Positions 6,331 through 58,141 of a stretch of 64,000 nucleotides of DNA are shown in pieces. Source of the DNA: Acanthococcus lagerstroemiae (Eukaryota > Arthropoda > Insecta > Hemiptera > Eriococcidae); assembly GCA_031841125.1 (NCBI GenBank), contig CM063108.1, positions 55,574,122 through 55,638,121 on the forward strand, read 5' to 3'. The translations under genes were made by a program, and so were the position numbers. The notes under the pieces were generated by a model. The model ran no database searches. It saw only the letters and a program-made list of their open reading frames with translations, and was not told the DNA's origin. Position 1 is the stretch's first letter. The number at the start of each line of letters is the position of its first letter.

Positions 6331-6677
6331 AGGGTGTCTACCGGTCATACATGTCGTATAATTGAGGCAGGGGTCATACAAGTCATACAGTTGCCCCTAA
6401 TTACTTACAAATTTGGTAATTCTGCCTAAACAATCGCAATATATCTAACCAAAATATGGCCAAATTGAAATTTAATCGAAAAATTGTGTTCTTTGCAATC
6501 ATTTGTTCGTTATTATTTAGGCTTCTTTAAACTTTTTGTTTACAATTAGCATGTTTTTGAATTTATTATTTCCCTAGTGAAAGTTCTGTTCAGGCGTGGA
6601 TATGTTTCGAAAACAGGTCGTACAAAAATCATATAAAGGTCATACTTTTAGAAAATTCGTATTTGGTGGATACCCTG
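6331..6677. mobile_element. Word element A: CAGGGTGTCTAC ends, word GTCATAC, TSD AAGAT
   Basis: The left end is CAGGGTGTCTACC and the right end is the complement of CAGGGTATCCAC. AAGAT flanks both sides exactly (6326-6330 and 6678-6682), giving a 5-bp target duplication. Inside the left end the word GTCATAC occurs repeatedly (GGTCATACA, AAGTCATACAG). It returns in the same orientation near the right end (AAGGTCATACTTTTAG). At 347 bp with no open frame, it must be non-autonomous. The termini and size suggest a hAT-like MITE, but the superfamily is inferred. Confidence 0.82.
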
Positions 6678-7089
6678 AAGATGCCACGTGGGAGGAACAC
6701 TGACAATCTCGACTGAAATTTTTTCAAAGTTTCTCCTCATCTTGATGTTTCCGACCGAGTCCATAGGCTCCCAACCAAATCTTATATTTAACGACTTTTT
6801 GACCAAAATCGACTGAAGTTTAACGAACTTCTTATGACATACGAAAAAACAGTTCTCCGTGCAGATCCACCGGACTGGATGTCTGAATTTCCCAACTTCG
6901 ATGTGTAAGTTCATGAAGGGGTCGCTTATTCCTCTTGCCGAGCATCATGTATCTCTCTTCTTTTTGTTATTCACTAATGCGTTTTGCAAACGTGGAATAT
7001 GGTTTACAATATCGGAGCTCAGATGGGAAAACTACAGACAGGCTAGACTATCAGTCGAGCGGAAATGAAATTGTTGTGTAACTGTATGA

Positions 7090-7181
7090 CCCCACTCGGT
7101 GGAGTGTATTGCTGTTCACGCGTGCCAAAATGGCTCCCTAGACACCGCACCCTTGGCCTCGGAAACTACCTTTCGATTAGC
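7090..7181. repeat. Dispersed repeat V, copy 1 (left part)
   Basis: The phrases CACTCGGTGGAG, GCGTGCCAAA and AAACTACC...TTTCGA also occur in order at 35578-35690. Here the repeat is interrupted by word element B and resumes at 7461. Function and class are unknown. Confidence 0.6.
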
Positions 7182-7460
7182 CAGGGTGTCTACAAGGTCA
7201 GGAAATCAGGATAACGTCAGGAAATTTCGAGGAATTTACTGAAAGGTCAGGAAAAGATTGGTAAACAACGATCCAATGGAAGATTCTGTGAGAAATTCCG
7301 TAATACGAATAAATAAAAAATCAAGAAATAATATTGTATGGTTGTAATGGATTCATGCAGAAAATCCCTTCCTCCACAGACTTTTATGTATATATTCTAC
7401 AAATACAAAAAAGGTCAGGAAAAAGTTAAGAAAAAAATTCTGTAGATTATAGATACCCTG
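7182..7460. mobile_element. Word element B: word GGTCAGGAAA, inserted in repeat V
   Basis: CAGGGTGTCTACAAGG opens the left end and the right end is TAGATACCCTG. The word GGTCAGGAAA recurs at the left (GGTCAGGAAATC, GTCAGGAAATTTC, AAGGTCAGGAAAAG) and near the right (AAAGGTCAGGAAAAAG), always on the same strand. The flanks TTAGC and GTATC are an imperfect pair. The uninterrupted copy of repeat V at 35.6 kb reads GTATC at the same place, which supports a 5-bp duplication that has since mutated. Length 279 bp, noncoding. Confidence 0.78.
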
Positions 7461-7495
7461 GTATCGTATCAGTGACCAGAGGGACGTATAGAGGA
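7461..7495. repeat. Dispersed repeat V, copy 1 (right part)
   Basis: GTATCGTATCAGTGACCAGAGGGACG continues the match to 35.6 kb after the inserted word element. Confidence 0.55.
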
Positions 7496-7609
7496 TTTTC
7501 CGAGCCCGCGTATGGCTCTATTCTGAATATTGAAGGGGCTAAATGTCTCTCCCAAGTTCGGAAAATATCGAAGTTTCAGCATTGATTCGGAAGGTTGTGC
7601 CTATTGCCT

Positions 7610-7850
7610 ACATCGAGAATTGAAGGGGTTGACGTTTTAAGAAATTTTTCAAGTCGTGAAATCGAACTACGCGATAACTTCCTTGTGACCTATTCTCTAT
7701 TCTGCATGGTATTAGATCATACGCTGAAAATATTATCTGTTGTTGCCTACCTTGAAAATTGAAGGAATTACAAAATGTGAACCACATTTCAAGTGAATTT
7801 GGTAACGAATTTCGATTCGAAAGGTGGAGATAGGTCCAGGAATCATTAGA
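7610..7850. repeat. Dispersed repeat U, copy 1
   Basis: This copy holds phrases such as CGATAACTTCCTTGTGACC, CATACGCTGAAAAT and TTGAAAATTGAAGGAATT. They recur in order at about 45850-46010 and partly at 8760-9000. The ends and class could not be defined. Confidence 0.5.
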
Positions 7851-8759
7851 CGTATTTTTCGTATCTGAAGAGTACCTATAACATCCATTGAGAATAATTT
7901 TGAAAAATGTAAAAAACAGTGACCTTGGGGGGGGGGGCACTTCCTCTACTACCGAATTGCATACTAACGGATTTCGTTCATATTACAACTGAAACTTATG
8001 TAAATAATGCTAGTTTAATTCAGTTTGTTTCTACACCTTTAGAGTGCAAGATTGGTGAAAAATATTTTATTTTTTTAATTGAAAATTTGACTTCAAAGAA
8101 TTAAAGACATGAGGCGGTTGGAGAAAGTGGGGTTGTATAGGGGACGTCCAGTACTACTAACATTACACATAAAATTTGTATGTCCTGAAACTACTTTTTT
8201 AAAGAGCTTCAAAAGACCTAATTTTTTAAACGAGGATTTCTTTGTTTTTGCCCGACTCTGTCCTCTCAAATAAGGTACGGCGATGGAAAAAATTCAGAAG
8301 AATACTATACTCCTTCATTACCAACTCTTCGAGTTTCACAGCCCTAACCCTCACCTACTGCCAGAAACGAAATTTTATGTAAACATAAGTCAAAATTGCT
8401 TAATTCGTCAATATCTCAGCGCCTGCGGCCGGGAGGGTGAGCAAACCTATATATATGCACGAACCATACTCAACTGCACCTACCTCTACCTAACGGGTTC
8501 TCAGATAGTCTCCCCGGAAATCCCTGTACATTGTTGAGTCTCAATCAGCCCATCAGCGAACAACAAGACAATGGTGCGAATTATAGAGCCACACTTCGCA
8601 AGGCTAAAACTGACCAACGTGTTACTTATTTGGTTGAATTTTTTCGTCTTTTGACTCTCCAAATGGAGTTGAATGAAAATTAGTAATGCCCAGTGAGTTT
8701 TAGCTTTGCGGAGGTTTGCTCGATGGTGCGACAAAATCTATCTTCTTTTTGTGCAATTA

Positions 8760-9000
8760 CCTTAGGGTTAAGTAATAATAAAATAATTGAAAATTTTAAG
8801 ACATTTTTCCAATCTTGGAATTGAGTTTTGTCTGCGAGCACTATTCTGTAGTATAGCAATTGACGGTACACTGGAAATGAACCAAAGATTATCGTCTGTT
8901 GCGTCCCTGGAAAATTGAAGGAGCTACAAAATGGGAACGTTGTACACTCGGATTTTATAATAGAATTCTGAAACTGGTGTCGTGGTGTGACCCATTCAAT
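8760..9000. repeat. Dispersed repeat U, copy 2
   Basis: GGAAAATTGAAGGAGCTACA at about 8907 and neighbouring phrases match the repeat at 7610-7850 and 45830-46010. Degenerate and noncoding. Confidence 0.45.
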
Positions 9001-9632
9001 ACATATCAAAAGCGCACAAGTAAGTTCGGTAAATCTTTGTTCCTTTTTGGATATTCTATCTTTTGCGCGTTTGGCCAATTCAGAAGTGGACTGACCAGTT
9101 GAAAACCCATGTATTGGATTTAAGAAAGAAAGGGGAAAAAACTGAACAACAAGAAACCATACAAAGAAGCTACATTTCGGCAGTTCGAACCATTGTGTGT
9201 GTGTATGTGTGGTGGGGGGAGTCGGACAAAAGAAAGATCAAGCTCTTTGTATTCTGTGTGAGGGGTGCAAGAGACTAGGTCGCCAAAAGAAATCAAGGAA
9301 AACAACTAAAACAGGTTCAGAACAAGAAAGAAGGTTTCATTGAATTTTGAAATGTCCATTTCGGGCTGGTCAAAGCGGTGGTGCTTTATTGTCATGTTTA
9401 CCTTATAACCCTGATCGAATGGAATATTTCATTTACAGGCCTGTGAAGAAATCTCAGACTATTATGAAAACGAAAGTGTTTATCGAAAAAATGAATACAA
9501 CAGAATTTATAGTACATAAAGTTTCCCTTCCATTGAGTCAATTTCTATTTCAGTCTGATGAATTTTTAGAAAATGTGTACGATTTCAATAGTTCCTTTTT
9601 TTCACGTGCCTAAAATAGTAGAGGGTGGCTCT

Positions 9633-9913
9633 CAGGCGCGGATTTAGAAAAAGGAGATAGCGGGGGGTACAGTAGCGGCGATGCATATAGATTAGCTGTT
9701 GCTTTTATGTTGGCAGGGGTGTGGGGCGGGGGCGCTCCCGGAGAAATATTTGATCTAATGTGGGATATGTGATGACGAATGTATAGATGTGTTATTATAC
9801 ATTTTTGGCATGTAATGAGCGTACGATTCATCATTTTTTCCTATTATTGCATTAAAATTTTCAACTAAGGGGGTGGCATGTATCCCATGCCCCCCTCCTT
9901 GGATCCGCCACTT
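9633..9913. mobile_element. hAT-like MITE with GGCGGATCC-type ends
   Basis: The left end CAGGCGCGGATTTAG and the right end (complement of AAGTGGCGGATCCAAGG) form an inverted pair next to G- and C-rich stretches. The flanks GTGGCTCT and GTGACTCT match at 7 of 8 positions, the 8-bp duplication expected for hAT elements. The interior of about 280 bp is noncoding. A lone right-type end of the same look (CTTGAATCCGCGCTTG) sits near 30503, and a related GGCGGATCC end near 17870. Confidence 0.72.
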
Positions 9914-10039
9914 GTGACTCTTTCGCGCGGCCAGTCCGAATACATCCTAGGCCAAGACGATCGGCCAACTGAGTCTCTGCACTATGCATTATCTTCAGGG
10001 GAAACAATTCTGAAGCAGTATTGGTAATTAGGTTCGCAA

Positions 10040-10200
10040 TGAAAGTTCGATATGTTTCAAACTTTTGGAAACTTGTAGCCCCTTCATTATTGAGTATAGA
10101 CCAGGTATGCTCGTAGCATTTTCGGTTTCTCTAGTCGAGCATCATCAGATCCTACCTGCTTGGCGTACCCAGCTGGAACGTCCTGTAAACTCGAACTTGG
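10040..10200. repeat. Dispersed repeat Z, copy 1
   Basis: TTGAGTATAGACCA and the following phrases (GCATC..CTACC, GGCGTACCCAGCTGGAAC) correspond to 47207-47350, where the order is kept with many substitutions. The repeat class is unknown. Confidence 0.5.
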
Positions 10201-11520
10201 TTCGCTCCTGTGACAGAGAGAAGTCAGTAGAAAGCAAATGTGATTCTCGACATCACGCGTTCTGGTACAGTTGTAGATTCGAATTTGTCATTTGTAAACG
10301 ATGCACGGCCGTGCTCGACCCGGTGCACTTTCACTCCATCGAAAAATGAACTCGATTAAGGTAACTCGACGCGTCGAGTTCGTCTTACGTAACTGAATTC
10401 TCGCTTGTAGTCGTATGCTCGCGGTCACGCGGCCGTATAGAGGAAACCGCGTGCCGGACAAAAACTCGAAATTTGGCCGACTCTTCGGGCGATAGATGTA
10501 GATGAAGTGTAGATGAAGTACATAAAGAATGATATACGGTAGTGTGTTTCCTAAAATGAAAGAAAAAAAAAATGAATATCTACTGGTACGGCGCCGTCAG
10601 CCATCAAAAGGTAAACAAAGAACGTGTTCCGCCGAATATATGTACGAACAAATACTGGACATATTACGGCGTTAAAAACTCGACGCAGATATAATATACG
10701 CGTCCGATACCACCGGAGATACTTTTATATCCTCGGGTATTTCACCGTGGCAGCCTTGAACGTGCCCCGAATACGACAACGTTTACCTGCCTGGCTACCA
10801 ACGACGAAGTACTTCGATGATGGAATATGTCAAGGTGAGAAACTCCTGGATACGCACGGCTATGTGTATCCTATGTATAGGTACACCTATACACGCATAC
10901 CGTGCTTCTCTGTACACGCTACGGACGCGCACACACGTGTCACGTGTCTAATGAAAGTCCGAAAACGGCCACAGCTACACATTCATTACCCAGCGCACCG
11001 GCAGTCCAGCTATGGGCTGAGCTGAGTCAGACGGTGGTAAAATGCCTGCCTGCCTGGTTGCATCTCACATTGTTTACGATCGTCGACTGATGTGTGCCTC
11101 CTCCGGCCCCTCTGCGTGTCACTTTTTCGGTGATGATTTTTGCGCGTTAATGAGGAAGTCATTACTGCGACACAACGAATGAGCAACAATCGACAAACAG
11201 TTCCACCTATGTTTTATTAATACTTTTTAATAAACCTGTCAAATGGCGCACATTCCTCTCGACCAAGGTTGCGAAATATACCCACTGTACGGCATACAGG
11301 CGCACGCCATGTCTACGTGGACAGCCTTGTCTGCGAACGTGGTGTATCGTCCACTGGACTGGGCAGGGTACGAAAATATTCGAAGAACGCGATGCGATTT
11401 GTCCGGTGGACTGATTTCGAAAACGCGACGATTCCTCGTGTTCTCCGCCACCGTCTACTCCTTAGTCCAGGAAGAGTAGAATCTGATCGACAAGATTTGA
11501 AAATGCGGTATACCTTCTAG
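10201..11520. other. CpG-rich low-copy island
   Basis: Base composition changes from AT-rich to CG-rich with many CG dinucleotides (for example around 10355-10480 and 10680-11000) and no recognisable repeat words. Frames are open on both strands, as expected of GC-richer DNA, and none translates into a protein I recognise. It could be regulatory sequence, an untranslated exon, or conserved noncoding DNA. Confidence 0.4.
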
Positions 11521-11879
11521 CCTAGTAGTTTGTAATATAACCACCCTCCTCCTCCTCCCCCCATTGTAAAAAAAGTCAAAAGTTGGAAATATTCTCAGGT
11601 TCTGGGGAATGACCAAGATAATGATCATTTTTATCTACAGATCATCCCTAGAGAAGATGACACACTGACAGACGTGCGTTGAAATGACGCACATCTCAGT
11701 TGAGATGACTTTTCAACTGTCACATCTATCTGCCGGTATTGATAAGGAATCCAGAAAGTATGGGGGAGGGAATCTATCCAGAATTCGAAAATTTTGTGAG
11801 ATAAACCCGTAAAATCAGGTCGATACATAATGTAGAGTTTTAGTTATTATTTAAACGTACTTTCAGTGCTCTAACGTAT

Positions 11880-12740
11880 CATGTTTTTTTTATGTTTCAG
11901 GTGAGTGTCGATTTCTTGATATCATGACTGAAGTTACGAATTTATTCATGTATTCGTAAGTACTTGACAACATAAGTACCTTCTTGAAACATTTACAGCG
12001 GTAATTTTCGCCCCGGAACGAGCAGTTGCCCTCGTTGCGCCTGAATCTCGATAAGTATCTGGCAAAATAATCGATGGACATTATTGCATTTCCACTTGCG
12101 CGAATTGCTCGAACTGTCTTCTTTTGAGCTCAGTCTGAAGAAAGACAGAATGGCGAAAGGATACGAAGAGGTCGGTCGTAAATTCGCGATAATTCGGAAA
12201 CAATGCTGACGATCCTGAATGACACAGACTTAGTCACAAAATGAAGGACTTCGCATGCGGGGGTAGGTCGTCTCCGTAGGGTGAAACTGAAACAGTTTTA
12301 GTCGCTTTGATTCGAGGGGCGGTCGATGACATCAACGGCGGCGGTATTCGGTGCAGTTCGAACTTTCACTCCCACTCGGCGACGATATGTAACTTAGCGC
12401 CGCGACGTACAGACACGACGGTGACTCATCATCCCCTTTTCACGCCCGGACAGTTTTTACTCAGACGTGGCGGCGGCGTCGCTTCCTCAACCGCGTCGTT
12501 ATGCGTTTTCGCGAAAATTCTCTGTGACTCAGATGTTTTCTTTTACTCGGAAACGATTGGCACACCGTTAGGAGGAGGAAATACCACGAGTTGCGTTCAC
12601 CGTTCTTCAGCGGCTGAAATCGACAATCGCCCTTGTCGTTCATGTTCAATCCTCGCCCCTGGCCCTCGAAATGATTTGTACAGGCGGTATTTTGGGCAAG
12701 TTTTCGAGCATAGGGATTTCGGCTTAAATATTTGAAAACC
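11880..12740. other. CpG-rich low-copy island, no gene recognised
   Basis: CG-rich sequence with little repetition, especially 12260-12690. Open frames exist on both strands (the longest 142 codons on plus), but their translations are rich in Arg, Ser and His, lack domain-like motifs, and mirror each other. I treat it as noncoding with possible regulatory content. Confidence 0.4.
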
Positions 12741-12830
12741 CCGAGTTTCATGTTAGTATCAGTTTGCTCTTTAATTGAAAATTGTGGCGGTTCTGGAATA
12801 TTTGAAGACGGTGGGACCAATTTGTGAGAT

Positions 12831-13078
12831 GGACGCTGTTTAACAAAAGGGAACTAACCCACATTTGTAAACAAAATGAGTTATTAGTATCGTTGGAAAG
12901 AGCGTAAACGTAGAATTTTTCAAAATTGAGCCCCCGATTCAAAAATGTGTACTCACGTTGAAAAAAGCTTCTCAATAAACGCAATGCCGTATAGTTTCTA
13001 CATGACTCTTGAACTTCGAATCACGTGTTCTCAAAAAGCGGATTTTGTGGGTTAGTTCCATTTTGTTAAACAGCGTCC
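12831..13078. mobile_element. GGACGCTGTT MITE, copy 1 (248 bp)
   Basis: The left end GGACGCTGTTTAACAAAAGG is mirrored at the right by the complement of GGACGCTGTTTAACAAAATG. The inverted match runs about 30 bp, through the next phrase (GAACTAACCCACA). A second copy of similar size lies at 62065-62316 in the opposite internal orientation. The interior has no coding potential. The flanks AGAT and AAAT are a weak 4-bp pair. The superfamily is not assigned. Confidence 0.85.
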
Positions 13079-13094
13079 AAATATCCTTTATGTA

Positions 13095-13638
13095 ATAGAC
13101 CTTTTCATAGGCGACGTCATGAGGAGAACTGTTGCACAACTGCTCCAGCATTCACAGCCATCAGGGTGCAGCCTTATTTGTTCACATTCATTTTACGAGT
13201 AAAACTCCATAAGCGAACATTCGTTCTTTGCGAGTCCATAAATATGAAAGAGAGCTTTACTTAATATTGAACGATGATTTAAATCAAAACTAAATGCTTT
13301 TAAGGGGGGTGGGAAATCGTATATATCTCTAATGCATACACATGTTCCTCTTTGTGAGAATCTGTTATAGTTCAGCTACCTAACTATAACAGATCCTCAG
13401 AAAGAGGAACATGTATAAATATGCATTAGTGATATACACGATTCCCACCCCCTTAAATCATAAATAAGCCCCCGGGAGCATTAAGAAATACGCTCTTTCA
13501 TATTTTATGGACCCGCAAAGAAGAACAAATGTTCGTTTATAATGAATGTAAACAAATAAGGTTGGACCCTGATGGCTGCAACTGGCTGGAGCAGCTGCGC
13601 AGCAGTCCTCCTCATAACGTCACCGTGAAAAGGGCTAT
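13095..13638. mobile_element. 544-bp foldback (near-perfect palindrome) element
   Basis: Two arms of about 265 bp read as inverted copies of each other. The outer ends are ATAGACCTTTTCA and the complement of ATAGCCCTTTTCA. Further in, both arms carry CAGCCATCAGGGT, the TTATTTGTT region, AACATTCGTTCTTTGCG/AACAAATGTTCGTT phrases and the GGGGGTGGGAA stretch. The arms meet at CTGTTATAGTTCAGC/CTAACTATAACAGAT near 13370. The arms have diverged modestly. A transcript would form a very long hairpin. It lies only 16 bp from the neighbouring MITE. Confidence 0.88.
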
Positions 13639-13699
13639 CAAAAATTACTCGATAGCTTATGGCAAATTGTCAATGGTCGATACGGATGTTAATCAGTGA

Positions 13700-15545: not shown

Positions 15546-16288
15546 CAAGCTGTCTGCCGGTCATATAAGTCATCTAAAGTCATCTATTTTGAAAAGAGAC
15601 CATCCAAGTCATCTTTTTTTCGCTGTGGTTCATCTGAAAAATTTTTATTCTATTAAATATTTCGTTTGGTTAGTATGAAAAGGTGATATCTGTTGAAAAA
15701 CAAATCTTACAGGAGAGGGGTTTTGAAGCAACCCCGACGAATGAATCTGTTGAACATGAGTTTTAACTAAAAATATGTAGTATAACAATGGTTCAACATA
15801 GGAATACATCTCAGAGATGAAAATATTCCACTTTTCTTTTCTTAAATCTTTTCATATATGAGTTTTTGTTAGTGATGTATTTTTAATCCATTTTGTTTTT
15901 AGCGTTTCCTGGTGAACTGAGGCAATATTTTATCATTTGCTGTGTGGTATCTTGTAGATAATAAAATTTCCTATACAACGATACCAAAAAGTCACTTTGT
16001 CAAGCATTGCAGATAGCACCTTTCCACACTTACCCACTGATTTAAAAAAAAAAAAAAAAAGAGAAACTACCAAAGTATAACATAAGTTGATCGTACAGAC
16101 ATCAGCTAATGATTGAATAGTCAGCGAGTATGAATGAAATAGAAAGAAAGAATAGGAATGATATTTTGAATACAACATAAAGTAGGGGAAACATTAGAAA
16201 AGAAAGCGATAGGAGTGGGCAAAACATTTTTTACAAAAGTCATACAAAGGTCATACTATTGGAAAATTTGTATTTGATAGACACCCTG
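15546..16288. mobile_element. Degenerate word element C (GTCATC/GTCATAC words)
   Basis: The left end (caagctgtctgccGGTCATA, then AAGTCATCTAAAGTCATC) and the right end (AAAGTCATACAAAGGTCATAC, then GATAGACACCCTG) have the layout of element A. No target duplication remains and the left CAGGG is mutated. The 743-bp length suggests later insertions, or that two half-elements are juxtaposed. An A run lies at 16044-16060. Confidence 0.55.
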
Positions 16289-20454: not shown

Positions 20455-21380
20455 TGTGGTTTTCCATATTCCACTCATTTATCTTGGTGAAGTACTATGG
20501 ATAACCTAACCTTGATAAACTAGACTACCACCAGCCGATATCTTACTCCCACATTCCACTTGTTTCACTATAACAGCGATTTGAAATACAATTGGATAAC
20601 CAAAACTTGATAAACTAGACTATCATCAGCTGATATCTCGCTTCCCCATTCCATTTGTTTTACTCCTACAACGATTTGAATACAACGGGTAACCAAAACC
20701 TGATAATCTAGACTGCTATCAGCTGATATCTAGCTTCCCCACTGCACTTGTTCCACTATAACAGCGATTTGTAATACAATTGGATAACTGAAACTTGATA
20801 AACTAGACTGCCACCAGTTAATATCTCGCCTCCCCACTGCACTTGTTTCACAGGGTTGCCACTTTCTGGAAAACCGGGAAAAGTCAGGGAATTTGGTCAG
20901 TCAGGGAAAATTCAGGGAATTTTCATTTAAGTCAGGGAAATTTTCTGAAAATAAACGAGTTCGTATTTTATCAGAGTAAACTTTTTTTATCATAACATAA
21001 GAATAATGATAATCTATTCGCAAGTGAAATAGTCTATAATATTGAAAAATATTACATAAATTACATCTGTACCTTCTTCTTCTCGATAGCGATTTTTTAA
21101 AAATCTGTATTGTAAAAAGTTTCTGTGACTCTCCTCCCTCTGGGCTTTCTCGGAATCCTGTAAAAAAGTCAGGGAAAATTGGAAAAGTTGGCCTGAAAAA
21201 CCGGGAAAAGTCAGGGAAAACCAATCCTGAAAAAAGTGGCAACCCTGTTTCAGTACAACAGCGACTTGTAATATGTAGAATCGTATAACTGAAATTTGAT
21301 AAACTAGACTGCCAACAGCTATCTCGCTGTCCCACTCCAGTTGTTTCACTGCAACAGCGATTTGAATTACAATAGGTTCC
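20455..21380. repeat. Minisatellite, period about 94 bp, about five units, interrupted by an element
   Basis: The phrase CTTGATAAACTAGACT begins units at about 20511, 20606, 20699, 20794 and, after the insertion, about 21294. Each unit continues with CAGCTGATATCTCGC-like and CACTTGTTTCA..ACAGCGATTTG phrases. Units differ by scattered substitutions. The fourth unit is split by the word element at 20851-21247. Confidence 0.85.
20851..21247. mobile_element. Word element D: word GAAAAGTCAGGGAA, TSD TTTCA, inserted in the minisatellite
   Basis: The left CAGGGTTGCCACTTT and the right complement of CAGGGTTGCCACTTT are identical 15-bp inverted termini. TTTCA flanks both sides (20846-20850 and 21248-21252). 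Neighbouring minisatellite units show the empty site (CTTGTTTCACTATAACAGCG), proving insertion. The word GGGAAAAGTCAGGGAA occurs on the same strand at both ends. Length 397 bp, no coding frame of its own. A hAT-like class with 5-bp duplication is my inference. Confidence 0.92.
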
Positions 21381-34594: not shown

Positions 34595-34720
34595 CAGGGT
34601 GGCCACTTTTCTGGAAATCCTGGAAGCCAGGGAATTTTGTGAGACCTGGAAAAATCAGAGGGAAGTCAGGGAATTTTGCCGAAAATTTTATGATGTGGAG
34701 GCATTGTTCAATTTTCTCTG
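34595..34720. mobile_element. Partial word element, D type (CAGGGTGGCCACTTT end)
   Basis: CAGGGTGGCCACTTTTCTGG is followed by CCAGGGAATTTTGTGAG and GGAAGTCAGGGAATTTTG, like elements D and D3. No right end was found within the next kilobase, so it is probably truncated. Confidence 0.6.
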
Positions 34721-40754: not shown

Positions 40755-41626
40755 CAGGGTGTCTACAGGGTCAAGTAAGTCGAGTAAAAGTCAAGTGTTT
40801 TCTTCAAATTCTTTCAGAGGTCAATTAATGTTAATTATAGGAATGACTAAGAACGATGAATGAACTAAAAAATAACAAAGCTAGAGGTAACAACTTTTGT
40901 TCCAATTTTCAATAATTGCCATTATTTGTTCTTCATTATTTGCGTCGTATAGCATAGCACACTAATTTTTGCAGTTTTACGATTTGCTGAACTGCTTGCA
41001 TGTTCCTGCATAAGGCGCTTTTCGTGGTCCTTATAAAAGTCAAATTTATAGGTAGGGACGTACTGAAGAGTTTATCCGGGGGAGGGGGTGAAAATAGTGA
41101 AAGACCCAACTGACTCAACTCAAAATTTCCACGTATCAAAACATCAAAGGAAAAAAAGAACCTTTTGATTGACTCATTGGATTTTAAAAACTGATAACTC
41201 AACTCAAAATTCTCAAAAATATCAAAGCAAAAAAAAAACCTTTTAACTTGTTGGATTTTTCCAATTTCTCACCTGAATTCCCAAGTTTTGATTGACATAT
41301 TGGATTTTTCCAACTGATGCTGACTTAACTCAAAAATCCCAGATATCAGAGTAAGAAAAAAACCTTTTGACTCGTTAGATTTTCCCTACTTCTCGACTCA
41401 ATTCCCAAGTGTCAGAGCAAGTAAAAAGAAAATAATGAAAAACTTTTGACTTGTTGGATTTTTTCGACTCCGCCTGACTGAAATGGTAAAGTTTCGCAAC
41501 TGCTGAATGAAAAATTTCTACGTGTGTGGGGGGGTAAGTTGCTCCTCACCCTCTATCGGTACGTCCCTGTTTCTAGGTTAAATAAAAGTCAAGTATTTTG
41601 ATTTTCCGAATGGTGTAGACATCCTG
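40755..41626. mobile_element. Word element J: word GTCAAGT, split by hAT-like MITE R2
   Basis: The left CAGGGTGTCTACAGGGTCAA and right GTGTAGACATCCTG ends are inverted. GTCAAGTAAGTCGAGTAAAA and AGTCAAGTGTTTTC at the left, and AAAAGTCAAGTATTTTG at the right, share the word and the strand. The flanks GAACC and GGACC match 4 of 5. Removing the 517-bp R2 insertion leaves about 355 bp, the normal size of this group. Confidence 0.82.
41053..41569. mobile_element. CAGGGACGTAC hAT-like MITE, copy R2, nested in element J
   Basis: The left end (TAGGGACGTACTGAAGAG) and right end (complement of CAGGGACGTACCGATAGAGG) match R1 and R3. The flanks TTTATAGG and TTTCTAGG match 7 of 8. It is longer than R1 because the phrase block ACTCAACTCAAAAT..CCAA..TATCA..AACCTTTTGA is repeated about four times inside. 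Noncoding. Confidence 0.88.
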
Positions 41627-43399: not shown

Positions 43400-43771
43400 C
43401 AGGGAATCTACAGGTGCTGAAAAGTCCTGAATTTTGAAAGTAGGTCCTAAAAGTCCTGAAAAGTGCTGAAATTTAATTAGAAAACTGAAAAGTCCTTCAT
43501 TTTTGTTGATACGTCTTTTTAAAACCACACACCTCAAAAGTCAACGTTCGTCGATTAAAATTGGAATTTTCAATAATAACAATTATCTATATTCACCAGG
43601 AGGAGGGAAGTGGGAGAGCAAAAAGGAGGGAGGGGTAAAGGGGATAAAACAGTTGCAAACAAGAAAGATTTACCCACTCCGAGAAAAGATGGAAAATATG
43701 CCGGCTACAGTCCTGCGAAGGGTCCTGAAAAAGTACTTCATTTTTACTTTTCAATTTCTGTAGACACCCTG
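43400..43771. mobile_element. Word element F: word CCTGAA/CTTCA
   Basis: The left CAGGGAATCTACAGGTGCTG and right CTGTAGACACCCTG ends are inverted. GAAAAGTCCTGAATTTTG at the left and CCTGAAAAAGTACTTCATTT at the right carry the word on the same strand. The element is clearly the same family as 53900-54196: the block around GATGGAAAATATGCCGG and the last 60 bp are nearly identical. No target duplication survives. Length 372 bp. Confidence 0.8.
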
Positions 43772-45424: not shown

Positions 45425-45813
45425 CAGGTTGTCTACCAGCCACGAAAATCCCGAAAAAGCCACAAATTTTTAATATAGGCCATAAAAAACCTGAAAAAGT
45501 CGCGATTTTTTTTTAACACCCGCAAAATAATAAGAACGTTACTATTTTAAATTTTCGGTGAAATTCGATTTTAAGTAGCGTGCATTATTCAATTATTGTG
45601 TCAGTGGGCACACCAAGGCATCTCCTACTTTCCTTATTATTTTATTATTGGCACCTAACTGTGCTAACTTACTGTTAGTTTTACATAGTTTCTCATGTTT
45701 GTTACTTTCAGGTTTTCTGTCTAATTCATGGGAGGGGGTGGGGTACGAAATTATATTTCAAAGGTTACGAAAAAGCCACGAATTTTCATTATTTGATTCT
45801 GGTAGACACACTG
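45425..45813. mobile_element. Word element H: word GCCACGAA
   Basis: The left CAGGTTGTCTACCAG and right CTGGTAGACACACTG ends are inverted. GCCACGAAAATCCCGAAAAA and GCCACAAATTTTT at the left, and TTACGAAAAAGCCACGAATT at the right, repeat the word on one strand. The flanks GTTCA and ATTCA match 4 of 5. Length 389 bp, noncoding. Confidence 0.82.
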
Positions 45814-46010: not shown

Positions 46011-46045
46011 TTATTAAAATTGTAAAATTGGTGTAGGCTTCTCAG

Positions 46046-47068
46046 CAGGGATGGCAAACGAAACGTTTTTTTTTTCCGTTTCGTTATTTTCAATATTTTC
46101 GGTTTTTCATAAGCGATTTTTCGTTTCGTTTTCCGTTTCGTTTATTTCATACTGGTGTTCATTCGTTTTGTTTATAACAAAACTAAATCATTTCGTTATG
46201 ATTTCGTTTTTTTTTTGTTTTGTTTTTTTCCCCATGTCATTAGGTACAATACAGATATTAGTTCAAAAGATTACTGATTGCCATGCATTTCTGAAACTGA
46301 TGTAATTTTAATTTTCATTCACGGTATCTTTCATATTTTTTTTGTACTTTTCAGTTTTCAGTCACGATTCGTGAAAAACAGTAATAAGAGTCACAATTAT
46401 TAGTTTTCATTTATTACTGATACATCTTTGAAAAAAATGTATATACGATATTGTTAGAGAAACTAGTTTCCTATTTTAATGAATCTACTTCTAGTAAAGT
46501 GCGGATCACCGAGTTTAAAAATTGAAATTCCAACTAGCAACTCAAGACAAAATACACAGTAAGAAAAATAACTCAGAATTCACGAGATCAGGACAGGCGG
46601 AAGTCCTTCTTTCTTTAAGAAAAAACGCGGATTACAAAAACTGATAACACAACAATCACAGAAGACAGAACACAGAACAACCAAGAACCAACACAGAAAT
46701 AGTCACAGGCTCACAGCTCACAGGTAAAATGAGAAACATGAGTAAATTCCGGCCAAAAAAAGGACTTCATTGAAATTACAACTCCATCTCATAAGGTTCT
46801 TTATTTTTCTACGACATAAGTACAAGATAGAGCATTACAGTGCAGCCATAAAGCAGACGAAAAAATAAACAACGAAAGAATGAAATAACGTAACGAAAAA
46901 ACTAAGTTTCAGTTTAGTTTTTTCGTTACGTTTTTCCTCCACTCTATTTTTCATTTTGTTTTTTCGTTTCGCTTTTTTTGCTACATTTTCATTTCGTTTC
47001 GTTATTTTGTTTCAATATTTTAGACAAAAATCAATCGTTATTTCGTTTCGTTTCGTTTGCCATCCCTG
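46046..47068. mobile_element. hAT-like word element O: word CGAAACG/TTTCGTT, TSD CTTCTCAG
   Basis: Perfect 20-bp inverted termini (CAGGGATGGCAAACGAAACG) are flanked by a perfect 8-bp duplication, CTTCTCAG (46038-46045 and 47069-47076). TTTCGTTTCGTT-type words fill about 150 bp inside each end, on the same strand at both ends. The middle of about 600 bp is AT-rich with no transposase. The 8-bp duplication and CAGGG ends fit hAT (established for the superfamily). The element is non-autonomous. Confidence 0.93.
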
Positions 47069-50480: not shown

Positions 50481-50639
50481 TTTAGGATGGGAATAATGGG
50501 AATACTGTTTGAAGGCTGGATAGACTGAAGTACTGTGCACCATAGGGCAGCTAAATCTGTCGGTTTAGTCACCTGACTATCGACTTGTCGATATTGACCA
50601 TCCGGATACACCTACTCAAATTGCTCGGATACTAGTGAG

Positions 50640-50890
50640 AGAATTATTGCTAAGTGGCTGGGTACGGTGTTGCCATTTTCGTTCCGAGGTATGTTGAGAG
50701 CGAAGCCGAATTTTGCGAAGTCTAGTGTCCCCGCAGAATGCATCGCTATTCACTGGAGTTCCGTTTGCGAAAAAGTCGCAAATTTTTTCTTCGCTAGATT
50801 AACGTGCATATCCGCCGCGCTGCTAATTACTCCCCGTTGCGAAACTGGCGTTCGTTTATCGTGAAAGTAACCAGCACTGAAAAACCAGCG
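50640..50890 (+). promoter_or_regulatory. CpG-rich stretch upstream of the Akap200 exon, possible promoter
   Basis: Composition rises in CG dinucleotides (gagagcgaagccgaattttg, ccgccgcgctgc) about 350-500 bp before the splice acceptor at 51150. It could host an alternative transcription start for the downstream exon. No TATA box or initiator stands out, so this is suggestive only. Confidence 0.3.
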
Positions 50891-51044
50891 AAGGTTGTGA
50901 AAACCGTACTCACGAAGTTTCGATTCTTATCTAAACGAGGTGGTAGATATCAGATATAAATGTACATTCCAATAAATTTAATTTTCAGCTCGAAGTGTTG
51001 TCGTAACTCGGGATAGTTGTTAAGTGTATATATATATACACTAC

Positions 51045-51045
<1 letters not shown>

Positions 51046-51074
<29 letters not shown>
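51046..51074 (+). repeat. (TG)n microsatellite
   Basis: About 14 TG units, preceded by a short TATATATATACA run. It lies in the presumed intron before the Akap200 exon. Confidence 0.92.
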
Positions 51075-51075
<1 letters not shown>

Positions 51076-51130
51076 GGTTTAAAACCTTAATTAAACAAAT
51101 GTAACGATCCGTTTTACCACAGTAAGAAAA

Positions 51131-51150
51131 TGTTTTCTTCTTTGTTGCAG
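51131..51150 (+). other. Splice acceptor before the Akap200 exon
   Basis: A pyrimidine-rich tract (ttttcttctttgttgcag) ends in AG at 51150. The exon then begins with a 77-base 5' UTR, with stop codons in frame before the ATG at 51228, so the ATG is the natural start. At least one untranslated exon must lie upstream. Confidence 0.75.
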
Positions 51151-51227
51151 GTTTAAAAGAGTTGTAATACCAGAGGAAGAATAAGAGAAGCGTTTAATCT
51201 GGTAAACCGGTTTGTTGTAAAAGCGCG

Positions 51228-51416
51228 ATGGGTGCTAGACAGAGTAAGCGCTCGGTAGACATCTCGAGTACGCCCAAAAAAGGAGAACTCGAAAATGGCG
51301 CAGTCGCCGGACCCGAAGAAAAGCTAGAGAAAATTGAGGAAGGCGAGTCAGCGGCGACGAAGGTAAACGCCAATGGTTCCACGACGACCACATCCACAGT
51401 AACAGCCGAACAACAG
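51228..51416 (+). CDS. Akap200: Akap200-like A-kinase anchor protein, first coding exon
   Basis: The translation starts MGARQSKRSVDISSTPKK, then an acidic Glu/Lys/Ala-rich stretch (PEEKLEKIEEGESAATK) and a Thr-rich end. As I recall it, Drosophila Akap200 begins very similarly (MGKAQSKRSVDI). Gly2 followed by Ser6 and basic residues is an N-myristoylation plus basic-patch membrane anchor. The family (established) is MARCKS-like, tethers protein kinase A through its RII subunits, and acts at the cell cortex. The exon probably ends at AAG|GTAAAC (51362), or at CAG|GTTTGC (51416). Both keep phase 0, and the first is the better donor. Later exons with the RII-binding and phosphorylation regions are outside the window. 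Codon use is GC-richer than the surroundings. Confidence 0.85.
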
Positions 51417-52658
51417 GTTTGCATTTTGCAGAATTTTTTTTTCCTTTTAATTTATTTATTCATTCCCTTCTGCGTGATGCGCGATTTTAGCGCTTTGCGC
51501 CCCTTCTTACTGGTTCCTGTTCAACTGGGTTGAAGGCAAAAGAAGAAAGAGAAAGAAAGATGGAAAGAAGAAATAAAGACCGTCTGTTAGAACCAGTTCG
51601 AGCTGATTGTTCTACGCGCGGTTTTGCGCGAATTTACTCACTTGGTTCACCGTGGTAGGGGGCGAATTCCGGCCATGTAATGCCCGTCAACTTGTGCGTG
51701 AAAACCGCCGAACGATTAATTCGTTTTACGGCTGCAGTTGTGTTTTTTAATCGCGCTTTGCAAAATGGAATGATATAAAAACAGAAAGAAAAGTATGGTG
51801 GTCATGTGAATGTGGTTTGATGTGGGTCACGATGTGCGTGAAGAGACGGTTCCCTTGTGTTGGAGTGCAACAGTACATGAGATGGGGTTTCCGCTGCTGA
51901 TTGAATCTATTCTGTTTTTCAGTTTTTGATTTGTTCGAGAATTCGAAATCCATATGCCAATCAGCTCTGAGTAGGACTCCGTAGTTGCACACGGATACGA
52001 TCGATCTGCCATTTTGATTGCAGAAAGTCAGCTCAAGAATCTATCGTATCTCAAGCAGAAGTTCACGAGACTATTCTTGCAACGGGGAACTTGAATTTGC
52101 CAGCCCGGAATCCTAAATCTGCCGAGTTTGCCAAGTTGATACAATAAGAGCAAGAAATAAAAGTTGTGTGAATAAGGCCTGATCGCGAGACCCCTCATCT
52201 CAGGATTGTCTGACTTTTTTGAATGTGTTTGTTTGAAGTTCTATAGGTATTCTATCTATGTTCCACACATACTTTAGAATCATTTAGCACTGATCATTTA
52301 TCCTTTCCGATTATTCATTCATACTAGACATTTTCTATAAAACCATCAACTTGCGAATTAAAAAATATGAAATATTCAAAATGTTGTTCTATATCAGTTG
52401 ATTTCGTATGACTCCAGGGTATATCTGAAATATGAAATTCAAAAATTGAATCAAAATTTCGAAACGATTAGAAGTATTGAGATATAAGAGAATTATGAAC
52501 TGACTCTCCCCAGTTAAAATGGCGGATCTATTGTGACTGTGTGTTGATATGAAGTATTACCTTTGCTGTACATTTTATGCAACAATGGGTCGTCACGTTG
52601 TCGAACGTCTTCTTCTGGTACCTTCGAGCCCATCCAGTAGCGATTCGTTCTTATTCTA
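51417..52658 (+). other. Presumed first coding-region intron, proximal part
   Basis: After the exon the sequence is moderately CG-rich to about 52030, then AT-rich. No further exon was recognised, and frames read through the donor quickly reach stops. Confidence 0.5.
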
Positions 52659-53077
52659 CAGGGTTACCACTTTGTCACTTTTTCTATTTTAGTCATCTAA
52701 AGTCATTTTTGATCATTCCCCCCCCCCCAATTGAAATTATCATTTAAGTCATTTTTGGGAAAGTTTCTTCTTCAAATTCTGGAAATTCAGCTGATTATGA
52801 GAAACTTACTTTTTTACTTTATTTAGTGCTTCCACTGTGCAGTGTAAATAAAATTGAAGTTCAATTTTCCAGCAAATTGCAGCAAAAACTTCCAACACAA
52901 CCCTAGCTAGTCAATTGGGATTGGGCGGGGGGGGGGTGACTATATTTAATGACGAGTAGTGTGTAAAAGAGAGAAGCACAAAATAAAAATTGCAAATAAT
53001 CTTCAATTCTGGTCATTTTTCACGTTTAATAAGATCAGTTTTCCATTTTCCCCCTGAAATTTTGAGTGGTCATCCTG
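52659..53077. mobile_element. Word element K: word GTCATC/GTCATTTTT
   Basis: The left CAGGGTTACCACTTTGTCAC and right complement of CAGGATGACCACTC are inverted. TTTAGTCATCTAAAGTCATT and TAAGTCATTTTTGGG at the left, and GGTCATTTTTCACG at the right, share the word. No target duplication is visible. Length 419 bp; C and G runs lie inside. Confidence 0.68.
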
Positions 53078-53899
53078 CTGTTTAGCGGACATTGTCAGAT
53101 TCTGCCCTCTAATTCTCGGCATCGTGGCGCGATATTCTTGATCCCATGTTTCTTAGTCATGATAGCTGTTTTCCTCCAATGTGATGTCTTCCTTCTTACT
53201 TTCCGAATAACTATATAAAATCGTAATGTCCACCTCGTATGATATGCCCCAAGAATCCCTCTTTTTGCTCTTCAATCGTTTTCAGCTATGCTAGTTCTTC
53301 ACGACCTGCACGTCCGAGAACCTCTGTATTTCTGACTTTCTCTATGAAAATTGAACAACGGCGAACAATGTAATTCATGAAAAATAGCAGGGGCGGATTG
53401 GCTATACAAGGTACCGGGAAATATCCGGTAGCCTGGTACATTTGGGAATTTTAGGCTGCTGTTATTAACAGTCAAGGAGTGAGGAGGAAAATGAGATATG
53501 ATGGAAGGGAAATGGAAGTAGAAAATTGGGCCGATGAAATGACATTTTCTCGATAACTTTTTGGTATCCAATCCGTCTCTGAACAATGGCATTCGATCTT
53601 CATGTTGTTAGGTATATGGAGTCTTTAAAATCGAACTAGTCCTACAGGCTTGAAAAGTTGCACTGTCTTGAGCGGGTATTATTGAGTGTTGATGTGTCTT
53701 AAAAGAGATTTAGCTGGCTAGGAAAATTCCAGTGGCGTTTTGATTTACCAAGAAGATCAAAATGGTTTCGTGTATGAAATGTTGGATGGCAACCTCTGAA
53801 CATAATATTTTACTTTCCCTCTGGCTCTTGAAGGGATTATATTTCTCTTTACTTGCACCCCTGAAAGAGTCTTCGGAATGTCAATGAGTGTTACTAGCA
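53078..53899. other. Noncoding, no gene seen
   Basis: AT-rich intronic or intergenic sequence. 53160-53290 faintly resembles an antisense LINE 3' end (wording like that at 30.5-30.8 kb), but it is too short to call. Confidence 0.35.
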
Positions 53900-54196
53900 C
53901 ACGGTATCTACAGGTGCTGAAAAGTGTCCTTCATTTTTGTTAGAAATACTCGCATATAAATTTTTGGCGATTCCTGTGATTAGTCATTAAAAAGTTAGCG
54001 CAGGATCTATATTCACAAGAAGAAGGAAATCAGAGGAGCAAAAAGGATGGAGGAGTAAAGCAGATAAAACAATTGGAAACCAAAAAGGGAAGATTTGCAC
54101 ACTCGGGGAAAAGATGGAAAATATGCCGGTTGCAGTCCTGCAAAGGGTCCTGAAAAAGTACTTCATTTTTACTTTTCAATTTCTGTAGACATCTTG
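53900..54196. mobile_element. Word element G: word CCTGAA/CTTCA, TSD TAGCA
   Basis: The left CACGGTATCTACAGGTGCTG and right CTGTAGACATCTTG ends are inverted and match element F. TAGCA flanks both sides exactly (53895-53899 and 54197-54201). GAAAAGTGTCCTTCATTTTT at the left and CCTGAAAAAGTACTTCATTT at the right carry the words on the same strand. The middle (GATGGAAAATATGCCGG region) is shared with F. Length 297 bp, noncoding. Confidence 0.88.
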
Positions 54197-54239
54197 TAGC
54201 AGAGAGGAAGGTGACTCGGGAACGGAACCCAGAATGCAA

Positions 54240-54990
54240 ATCGGAGGTTCTAGATTTTAAATTATTTTTTTCTTAGATTCAGATTCATTCATCCGAGTTT
54301 ATTTTCCCCCATGGATTCGGATTCTGTTTTTCCGCAGAAGCCATGAGAATTCTGTTTTCCATACAGTCCATGTCAGGATTCTACGTAAATTCATATTAGG
54401 ACCAGGGACGTACCGGAGTTTTTCCCGTGGGAGGGGGGGGGGTAAAAATTGTAAAAGTCCCAACTGACCTAACTCAGAATTCCCAAGTATCAAAACAAAA
54501 AAAAAATTGACTTGTTGGGTTTTTCTAACTGGCTCAACTCAAAATTCCATAGTATCAATGCAAAAAAAGGAAAACCTTTTGCCTTTATTGGTCCCAACTT
54601 CTCAACTCAATTCCCATGTATCAAAGCAAGAAAGAATAAAAAAAGTTAACTTGATGGATTTTTCCAACTCGCCTGACTGAAATTGTAAATTTTTCCAACT
54701 GCTGAGTAAAAAATTCCTATGGGGTAAGGTGTAAAGTCCCCCCCCCCCTTCATTGGTTCGTCCCTGATTAGGACTTTAATTCCATACCAGGATTCCGTAT
54801 TCTATCAGGCAGATCAGTGAATTGTTCTCGATTCCTCTTTTTCGAGAAAATCTAAATCCCTGGATTCTTCGTAGATTATACAATATACAGTTCCATTTCC
54901 AATGAGAATTTCTGCTGGATTCGAATTCCCAGTTACCGGGATCATGTTGGTTCTGGATTTGGATTTTCAGATTTCAAATGCATTCGTCGT
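54240..54990. repeat. GGATTC word region, split by MITE R3
   Basis: GATTCAGATTCATTC, ATGGATTCGGATTCTG and TCAGGATTCTACG precede the R3 insertion. After it come ACCAGGATTCCGTATTC, CTGGATTCTTCG, GCTGGATTCGAATTCCC and TGGATTTGGATTTTC. It looks like one word element carrying a later insertion. Terminal inverted repeats could not be placed with confidence. Confidence 0.55.
54413..54766. mobile_element. CAGGGACGTAC hAT-like MITE, copy R3, perfect 8-bp TSD
   Basis: The left CAGGGACGTACCGGAG and right (complement of CAGGGACGAACCAATG) ends are flanked by ATTAGGAC on both sides exactly (54405-54412 and 54767-54774). The body phrases (CCCAACTGAC, AATTCCCAAGTATCAA, CGCCTGACTGAAAT) match R1 and R2. The 8-bp duplication makes hAT the likely superfamily. 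Length 354 bp, noncoding. Confidence 0.93.
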
Positions 54991-55261
54991 CGATTCTCTA
55001 GTCTGTGAGTTTAAATGGGGGAAACTCCGTATTGATGGAATTGAGTTTTCTTACCTTGATATGAATAGGTGTTTTTCATTTTTTGCTTTGTGGCATTGTA
55101 TACACTTCCTGTTGCAAATCGCATACAAATCTCTGATTGCCGTAGTGCTTGTGATTTATAGTAATGATGTTCTGATTGTTCCTAACCAACGGCCGTGTGG
55201 CACACTTTGCTTGAGAGTACTTTTTGCAAATACGGATGGTAGCCTAACAGTTCTAATATGG

Positions 55262-55524
55262 CGGGGTGACCAGTTTCTGGGAAACCGGGAAAAGTGAGGG
55301 AATGTGAGCACACCTGGAAAAATCAGGAAATGTTGATAAAAAGTCGAAAAAGTCTGGTAATTTTGAATAAAATTTGATGATTTGAAAGTATTATACAATT
55401 TTCTTTCAGGTTCAGGTTTTTTTTTTTTTTTAGTAATTCGTTTGTTATGAAAAAGTTGAAAAATGGACTGAAAAAATCTGAAAGAAATCTGGAAAAGTCA
55501 GAAGGGAAAAAACTGGTCATCCTA
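55262..55524. mobile_element. Word element D3: word GGGAAAAGT.AGGGAA, TSD TATGG
   Basis: The left CGGGGTGACCAGTTTCTGG and right complement of TAGGATGACCAG are inverted and resemble element D. TATGG flanks both sides exactly (55257-55261 and 55525-55529). The words CCGGGAAAAGTGAGGGAA, CTGGAAAAATCAGGAAA and CTGGAAAAGTCAG lie on one strand at both ends. Length 263 bp, noncoding, with a T run at 55419-55432. Confidence 0.86.
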
Positions 55525-56960
55525 TATGGCCTGATTTGGTAGTGAAGCACAAAGTTGATAAAGTTCTATTTTTTCATGTGGTCTAATCTATTAAACCATC
55601 ACGCCGGTATTTTATCGATTCTCTGGCCGTTCTTTGGTCCTCTTATTATCTGTGCGAAGGCAATAATCGCTGACAGAACGAATTTGTATTCTTGCTGTGT
55701 AAAGCCCTTTTTATGCATGTACTCATTAATTCTAACATCTACTGTGCTCCTTGTGTCCTAATTTTATTCACGGGCAGCGGGTCATATATCATTGATGAAA
55801 TATTATTTTAAATTAGGTACAGGAATTTATCCATTTTGATTTAGAGTTCTCAGATAAGTAAATGTGCAAATGGGTTACGTAAACTGATTACTTGATAAAA
55901 GCTGTCATCGCCCATAGCGTTCAGTCGAGGAAATGATAACATATTTCAGTTTGTGTAGTATAGTGTTGAAGAAGCCTTCTTTCTAATCATTAAGTATTCC
56001 TGAAAGTGTAGTAAATTTACGTCAGGGAGACCCTCAATGGCTACAAAGACGTTTTGAAAAGTGTGGATTGAATGGGTTGTAAACTGAGGCGCAATATGTT
56101 TCAAAAAATTGAAGATACAGATTGGTTTTTCATTTTTCATTCGAAAACCAATTTTACTTGTATTAGTTGAGAAATCGGATAGTGTTATTCACGTTGCTCG
56201 CGAGTAACGGTTTCTCTATGCTCTTCGTAACTTTGACTTCCCCAGACCGTCATTTCAGTTACCTGTCATCGCCTTGTGTTTTCGTATTGTACGTGTGAAT
56301 TGATTAGCTGAGTCATGAAGTTTCATTGTATCGAAGAATGGGTTGCGCGGCAACCCTGAAGTTCGAAAACTACTTCCTCATAAATGAGTACTGCTGGGCT
56401 TATCGAAAATACTAGGTACTGAAAAGCTATTCAATACTAATTCAAAAGTACCTAATTTGCGTACTTTTGTCTTATTATTCTTGAGTATCTTCGACCAGCT
56501 CAGTAGTACCTCTTCTTTTAGGGCTCGAGAGGGGTAAGTTTGGAAAGTGAGTACGAAAACACTTATCTGAAGAGAGCGCTTTTGATTTCCTACGGAATCA
56601 TCTACAAGCTAAACCTCTTACATCAAGTTAATTAAAACGACAATTGTTTTGATTTTTCCGCTTGAATGTGGAACAGAGCTATATCCACTTCTCAGATGTA
56701 TGAACGGCCTGCTTCTTTTCATTCTCAGATTATGACTTGATAAAATTAACTGCAATGGTTTTGTATAATGCAAGGTGTCTACAGGTTTGGAAAATTTGGA
56801 AAGTTTGGAAAAAGTCAGGAATTTGGAAAGTAGGTCAGGAAGTTTGTAAATAGTCAGGAAATTCAACAATATTTTTAAGAAGTTTGGAATTTTTCATCTC
56901 GTACACTTGGAGAAATATAATTCATAACTTAGTTCATCGCTTTGTTTATTTATATGTATA

Positions 56961-57963
56961 TGTTATGGTCAAAGTAGATAATTGCGACATTTTACATACT
57001 GCCCGGTCATTCTGCATAATGCCCACCTTTTTTTGGATATTCTGTATAATGCCCGAGACCTAACGGTCATTGTGATGAATCAGTGCAAGTTATTTCATAC
57101 AGAATCAGGTTCCATACAAGAAAATATGTTTTTACATGAAATTGGCAGCCCTAGTGATGGGGAATAGTGTAACAGTATTTTTTTTCTTCCATATGTCTGT
57201 ATAAGAGCAGGTATTTCTTTTTTCCATACGTCTGTGTACTGCCATGTCTGATATGTTTACATTTTGATATGCCCGGTATCCGCTAATTTTGATAAAACTG
57301 TAGTTTATACGTTGTACCAAAAGATTTTTGGGTCCATTATTTAAAAAATTCTGGATTTTTCCAAGCTAAATGATTACCCTATCAACTTTTTGGCAGTGTT
57401 ACACTGTGCCCAGGTACTAGGGTACAGTGTAACAAAAAAGTACATGGATAAAATAATTTCTAGATTCTTCAGGTTTTAATATTTTCAGGCGGTAATAACA
57501 CCAAAATGTAGCCAAAGGCTGTATCTTTCAGGTGAGGTGTTAAAGTCTGAATCCAAAATTAATTTGTAGTCCAAAGATCGAAATGGACGGAGAGTGTTAC
57601 ACTGTTCCCAGGTCTCCCCTATGTGAGGTTATAAAAGCCAAAGAGAATTTGCGAAATGCGACCTGTAAAACAGAGCCTGCACATTATTCATTAGTGAAGA
57701 AGTACAACGTCGTGAACATTGCTGGACAGGAAAGTAGACTTACTTGATTTTTTGTTTACTTTTGTACATCAGTGTTTTCTGATTTCAATTTCATTCAATT
57801 TTTACGTGTACATTGACCAATTTTTACTGGATGTTCTATAAAATGACTGTGGTCATTGTGTAGATTGACAAAGGGATTCTACACAATGTCAATTTCTCCT
57901 AGACATTATATAGATTGGCCGGGCAATATGTAAAATGACCGATTATTTACTTTGACTGTAACA
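56961..57963. mobile_element. Nested element: ends TGTTAYRGTCAAAGTA, word ATAATGCCC
   Basis: TGTTATGGTCAAAGTAGATA at the left mirrors the complement of TGTTACAGTCAAAGTAAATA at the right. The similarity continues into ACATTTTACATA.TGCCCGG, about 45 bp of inverted termini in all. Words such as TTCTGCATAATGCCC, TTCTGTATAATGCCCG and TTCTACACAATGTC recur inside. It splits element I. No clear target duplication was found and the superfamily is unknown. Confidence 0.78.
57155..57618. mobile_element. Third-level nested element: word TGTTACACTGTNCCC
   Basis: GATGGGGAATAGTGTAACAG at the left and GTGTTACACTGTTCCCAGG at the right, followed by TCTCCCCTA, form loose inverted ends. The same words meet in the middle (GTGTTACACTGTGCCCAGG, GGGTACAGTGTAACA). 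It sits inside 56961-57963. Boundaries are approximate and no clean duplication was found. Confidence 0.6.
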
Positions 57964-58141
57964 GAACACCTTCCTAATGCTTTCACCCAAAAATCTACTT
58001 CAAATTTCTGTTCATTTTAACCATAGCGTCTAGTAGTATAAACATAAATATATACTGTCTATACTGTAAAGGTTTAAAGAAGGGGAAAAAAGTTTGGAAA
58101 AAGTCAGGAATTTTTATTTTTCCATTCTTGTAGACACCATG

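Follow-up and report, generated by a model that had tools for sequence, protein, structure and literature searches.

The window analysed here covers 64 kb of contig C3 in the Acanthococcus lagerstroemiae genome (658 Mb in 438 contigs) and carries a group of short elements that share CAGGGTGTCTAC-like inverted tips and, inside these tips, a common frame of GTC/GCC "rungs", each followed by a slot holding a short word that differs from family to family. On the sampled elements we observed the frame, its phase, the length of the slots, the agreement between slots and between ends, and the common direction of the words. The families are miniature inverted-repeat transposable elements (MITEs), being short and non-coding, with inverted tips, target-site duplications (TSDs) and a high copy number. 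With a probability of roughly 0.64, we consider that they have been moved in trans by one transposase lineage, most likely hAT5, and that the words are its family-specific binding sites. A hAT5 transposase would then bind the words, and selection rather than copying would have fixed them.

Within the window, CAGGGTGTCTAC-like ends with up to two mismatches occurred 18 times against 2.22 expected, and none of 100 shuffles contained as many. Genome-wide there were 4,599 exact CAGGGTGTCTAC tips (2,305 + 2,294, both ends of an element being counted), compared with 26 (11 + 15) for the reversed control word. Loci were sampled as the first 30 places, taken as 3-kb loci (some overlapping), plus 20 stretches of 10 kb. 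All lay within the initial 13.4 Mb of contig C1 and, together with the window, amounted to 354 kb with overlaps counted; the element pairs thus represent one chromosome region plus the window. A pair finder returned 40 pairs of 205-1,448 bp, 21 supported by a TSD and 19 by proximity, and an exact 5-bp TSD was present in 15 of the 40, three of them in the window; element 20851-21247 came in addition. Before ends were compared, five pairs were removed by eye, namely two with one end belonging to another TSD-supported pair (L025 1501-2303 and L049 4166-5012) and three with ends lacking a ladder of rungs, which were taken as chance pairs (L007 2604, L030 1289 and L032 4287). This removal, which tilts the comparison somewhat toward covariation, left 35 pairs and, with 20851-21247, a set of 36 elements in 14 word families. 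Five of these families had one member and three had two, and they were defined partly by words judged by eye, backed by the clustering of interiors. Elements L004, L006 and L036 were reoriented by hand, which does not affect the outcome of the direct versus inverted comparison. At four further places (L001 1512, L003 1501, L010 1501 and L026 1512) exact CAGGGTGTCTAC tips were seen with no ladder visible behind them, and these may be additional families or chance occurrences.

The two ends of an element were compared by shared 6-mers, after removal of those common to at least five families, under nine settings. Left ends shared 6.46 6-mers with right ends of their own family versus 1.32 with right ends from the other families, a difference reached in none of 20,000 permutations. 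In this same setting the own right end was the best match for 12 of the 14 families; the exceptions were L006, which is single and diverged, and the CAAGGAA family, the left end of which was a slightly better fit (6.9 vs 6.2) to the right end of the family carrying the similar word CAAGTA. Across all nine direct-orientation settings the permutation result was again 0 of 20,000, and between 7 and 13 of the 14 families, depending on the setting, matched their own right end best. The first-pass annotation had proposed that left and right words change together and that free mixing would speak against this; no such mixing was found in our sample, and the covariation holds at the family level. The family-level permutation is the fairest of these tests, and it rests on 14 families. 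In spite of the inverted tips, the words of the two ends point the same way: right ends share 6-mers with the left end when read directly and do not when reverse-complemented (1.15 vs 1.37, not above background). Likewise, the words shared with the left end numbered 6.6 for the direct right end, 1.4 for the interior, 2.2 for the reversed and 1.1 for the reverse-complemented right end. The family with the word CATG (3.7 direct vs 4.0 inverted) cannot separate the two orientations, since CATG is self-complementary.

When 15 representative left ends were aligned from the tip, they shared CTAC-N-(A/G)G, followed in most by GTC/GCC rungs with runs of A between them, and 13 right ends aligned in the same way read mostly AAAAGTC-word-ATTTT-N-A-N-TTTTC up to GTAGACACCCTG. 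Word columns were variable, and frame letters were more constant across families than word letters. Left rungs concentrated at 15/16, 24/25, 35, 44, 54/55 and 63/64 from the tip and right rungs at 39, 50 and 61/62. Spacings among left rungs clustered at 9-11, 19-20, 28-31 and 38-42 bp with little between, neighbouring rungs being mostly 9-11 bp apart on the left and about 11 bp apart on the right. A phase test on the left rungs gave a vector strength of 0.75 near 9.75-10 bp, which none of 1,000 random placements equalled. Genome-wide, a two-rung frame with a 4-bp first slot had 381 matches, a number unchanged when AA was required after the second slot, compared with 10 matches for a 5-bp first slot and 0 for the reversed controls. 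The skeleton is therefore visible in the tip-anchored alignment, in the 10-bp phase test and in the genome-wide count at exact spacing. In viral contigs AAAAAGTCAGGGAATTTT had 0 matches and CAGGGTGTCTACNNGNC occurred in 95 stretches, of which 15 had any further rung-like letters and none, as judged by eye, a ladder.

The slots themselves were compared in the first 100 of the 381 two-rung matches (contigs C1-C3), with words copied by hand. Among these 100, the slots held AAGG, ATAC, ATCT, CCGG, CAAT, ATGA and AAGC/AAGT with point variants. Slots 1 and 2 were identical in 43 and at most one base apart in 86, while shuffled pairs were identical in 12.7 cases on average and in 24 at most. When the 44 distinct slot pairs were each counted once, their mean difference was 1.23 against 2.51 after shuffling (0 of 20,000), and 71 of the 76 pairs that could be assigned to a word class agreed, with five differing. 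The fetched loci and the window added AGGAA, AGGGA, CTGAA, ACGAA and others. At least eight words occupy the same kind of frame within one genome.

Eight elements of this group, all on the + strand, lie in the window, and in each of them the letters after a left GTC/GCC-type rung recur, on the same strand, after a right-end rung. Four have exact 5-bp TSDs: 6330..6677 (word CATAC, recurring letters ATAC, TSD AAGAT/AAGAT), 20851..21247 (CAGGGTTGCCAC ends, words CCGGGAA/CAGGGAA, recurring AGGGA, TSD TTTCA/TTTCA), 53900..54196 (words CCTGAA and CTTCA, recurring CTGAA, TSD TAGCA/TAGCA) and 56771..58141 (words TTTGGAA and CAGGAA, recurring AGGAA, TSD TAATG/TAATG), the last without a long open frame. 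In two elements the TSD has one mismatch, namely 40755..41626 (word CAAGTA, recurring AAGTA, GAACC/GGACC) and 45425..45813 (word CACGAA, recurring ACGAA, GTTCA/ATTCA), and two have none, 7182..7460 (word CAGGAA, recurring AGGAA, TTAGC/GTATC) and 43400..43771 (words CCTGAA and CTTCA, recurring CTGAA, CTCTC/ACCAA). The first-pass annotation, which had described a group with shared ends, 5-bp TSDs and one word in all slots of an element, was thus right, with limits, about the existence of such a group in the window and beyond it; its TSDs hold for part of the elements as just listed. A shared word is present at both ends of all eight, but the slots drift by at least one base and 56771-58141 mixes two words, each found at both ends. 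The start given in the annotation, 6331, lies one base inside the first element, and its element D3 could not be recovered: 34595..34700 (+) is a left end (CAGGGTGGCCAC) with CAGGGAA words and no TSD partner within 2.5 kb, and positions 52659 and 56358 have neither a TSD nor such words. A lone terminus with CATAC-type words occupies 16199..16288 on the - strand (tip at 16277-16288), its other end not being located. Element 20851-21247 begins where a 95-bp tandem repeat of 3.7 copies (20498-20851) stops, and it seems to have inserted into this array because the array unit contains TTTCA, its TSD. Beside the 5-bp group, positions 46046-47068 and 54403-54766 each hold a hAT-like element, with duplications of 8 bp (CTTCTCAG, ATTAGGAC) and CAGGGATGGCAA / CAGGGACGTACC ends.

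Clustering of the interiors alone, at E 1e-4, gave groups that were pure in word except for one, which is mixed because a CATAC element is nested in a CCAATAA element. Homology of the CATAC and CCAATAA elements was therefore rejected; the nested insertion (L049 4166-5128) gives the order in which the two arrived. At the same threshold certain elements sharing the word CCAATAA were placed in different groups, and no pair with the same interior and different words was found among the clusters of sampled elements. The data hence show families that differ in their words, not a word swap caught happening. Nesting was also seen at L033 2581-5760, where a pair spanning 3,180 bp, with CAGGGTGTCCATTC-type ends, the exact TSD TGTTG, CAGGGAA words and no long open reading frame (ORF), encloses a CAAGTA element (3636-5012). 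Genome-wide, the CATGAAA family comprised 13 left and 12 right ends, which form nine pairs by coordinates; eight of these pairs span 351-378 bp and the ninth 1,118 bp.

Under the reading that we prefer, the 12-bp inverted tips would be the ends at which cleavage occurs, and the directional ladder inside them, in most families GTC-word-AA-GTC-word-AAAA-GTC-word-ATTTT, would be an array of binding sites. The spacing of the rungs, close to one helical turn, could let repeated DNA-binding domains line up next to each other along a single face of the helix, and Hermes is an octamer that reads many repeats. The GTC and A/T parts may be the constant contacts of the lineage, and the word of about 4 bp may be read by residues that differ between families. 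A change of specificity would then drag every slot at both ends to a new word, because each of them must bind the same protein. Of the two mechanisms that the first-pass annotation had put forward, co-evolution of the words with transposase binding is the best explanation, one that we infer, as no transposase was found. The other, template-driven conversion between the ends, is not needed for the data and is kept as a rival.

In that rival, gene conversion or slippage between direct repeats would have spread a word within the element, from the left array to the right end, without selection by any binding protein. The shared stretches are indeed in direct orientation, where such events are easy, some of them are long (about 22 bp in 56771-58141), and short tandem arrays are found inside ends, for instance a 19-bp unit at 56801-56860. 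A plain copy of the left end should however keep its spacing, and left rungs are mostly 9-11 bp apart whereas right rungs are at about 11 bp; moreover, frame letters vary less than word letters across families, and the left end has far more in common with right ends than with interiors. We regard such copying as unlikely. Plain descent, with one founder per family, word sharing as the trace of an old internal duplication, and words as free passengers in a conserved frame, is in line with the finding that, at E 1e-4, interiors as well as words are specific to the family and with the drift of words by one or two bases between slots. Passengers should drift slot by slot, yet 86 of the 100 slot pairs are at most one base apart, and the 44 distinct pairs agree better than shuffled ones; copies of a young family would be expected to agree anyway, which weakens the objection. 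Descent of this kind is, in our view, unlikely.

It is very unlikely that a host protein, such as a silencing or nuclear factor, is what binds the words. Nothing specific speaks in its favour, and the sites are phased to the tip, at about 15-95 bp from the left and 39-62 bp from the right tip. Such a position near the tip is the usual one for transposase sites according to a study on Tgf2 (PMC4890040). Imperfect slots in single elements and exact tips without a ladder might still suggest a pattern read by chance or bias into A/T-rich DNA, an idea that is refuted by the genome-wide counts, with reversed controls at 0, and by the permutation tests, and to which we give almost no credence.

A number of results weigh against the preferred reading of transposase binding, among them those of the search for the enzyme. 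The first-pass annotation had recommended looking for full-length relatives with a transposase, and none with these ends was found in the loci and hAT genes sampled. In L001-L050, 122 ORFs of at least 110 amino acids passed a low-complexity filter, and a scan of 115 of them at E 0.01 (seven copies from overlapping loci were omitted) detected RVT_1, SET/FYR, PHD-like and some weak other domains, none of them of the hAT type; a rescan of ten longer ORFs gave one weak match. Inspected by eye, the longer members (3180, 1448, 1371, 963, 872 and 845 bp) had no long coding frame. A search with PF05699 gave 2,179 candidates, of which 150 were scored and 12 followed for 450 bp downstream, where no matching right end was present at up to three mismatches; four of the 12 had a match with four mismatches, taken as chance. 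L158 (G000:C9:34454298-34455425), the long CATGAAA member of 1,118 bp, holds an ORF of 103 amino acids. Genome-wide this ORF had 720 candidate places, 150 of which were scored, and a single relative turned up among database proteins. It was rejected as partner, since alignment to short CATGAAA members places it in a nested insert (element positions ~183-953). The ORF may resemble the end of MULE/FLYWCH-type transposases, but no Pfam family was assigned to it (best E 0.15). The insert is flanked by a ACTAATTC repeat, and its inverted repeats consist of GGTCGAA words; here as well a single word recurs, in this case inverted.

The remaining points concern the pattern itself. The skeleton that the first-pass annotation took to be conserved holds for most families but is not universal, as three of 13 have zero or one left GTC/GCC rung (AAGGAAAA 0, CAAGAAA 0, CATGAAA 1) and carry their words after a plain G (GCATGAAA, GCAAGAAA). 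The strict two-rung pattern accounts for a minority, with 381 matches against 4,599 exact tips, which can be of either end. Clustering at E 0.01 gave one 11-element group of mixed words, and the nulls for phase and slots treat families and copies as independent, so that shared descent leads to an overstated significance. Same-direction sites in an element with inverted tips are also unlike what a two-fold symmetric synapse would suggest, and the Tgf2 study describes hAT subterminal repeats as haphazardly placed (PMC4890040).

On a tentative and broader view, which we hold to be possible but doubtful, the genome may harbour a radiation of transposon dialects, with a conserved directional ladder in which mainly a 4-bp word is exchanged, and a small number of residues in the DNA-binding domain of the transposase would read this word. 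Lineages would repeatedly switch specificity, perhaps escaping their own MITE parasites, and the ends would be polar, with more word modules on the left than on the right and all in one direction, so that only left-right pairs synapse. Should the partner transposases be found, each would be a natural experiment in which a DNA-binding specificity changed and all dispersed sites followed. This would make it testable how multi-site recognition systems switch yet stay functional and whether transposons alter words to escape parasites, and the same-direction sites at both ends would provide a test of how an asymmetric end complex is formed.

Compared with known systems, Transib elements have 5-bp TSDs with CACWRTG-like tips, and were rejected because the TSD length fits but the tips here are CAGGGTGTCTAC. 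Mutator-like elements (MULEs) have TSDs of 8-9 bp, long inverted repeats and a transposase within the element; they were rejected given the 5-bp TSDs and because the L158 ORF belongs to a nested insert that brings inverted repeats of its own and ACTAATTC. In CACTA elements (En/Spm), which have 3-bp TSDs and CACTA ends, each family likewise repeats a subterminal motif of its own, which the protein of that family recognises; these motifs occur in both orientations, and what differs here is that the frame is shared and the word exchanged. CAG...CTG ends are a feature of hAT5, and the 5-bp TSDs and CAG...CTG tips make it probable that our families belong to this class. It is defined by 5-bp TSDs, as stated in PMC12730594 (citing Kapitonov and Jurka 2007) and PMC9004415, and the duplications found here are 5 bp, not the 8 bp of hAT elements in general. 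Subterminal motifs are repeated as in other hATs; unlike in hAT5, no transposase is tied to the ends here. The parts of the hAT5 literature available to us do not describe an exchangeable 4-bp slot, 10-bp phasing or direct orientation at both ends, which is not proof of their absence in print. Animal MITEs such as Mar (PMC3517528) resemble our families in being short, non-coding, flanked by terminal inverted repeats (TIRs) and TSDs, and of high copy number; MITE is a descriptive class and says nothing on the anatomy of words and frame. In Tgf2, many short subterminal repeats lie inside the tips, as here, and are bound together with the TIR by an N-terminal BED zinc finger (PMC4890040), whereas the repeats described here are in helical register in most families, run in one direction and carry family-specific words within one genome. 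As hAT subterminal repeats go, sites that all point one way, keep a helical phase and carry interchangeable words are an unusual variant.

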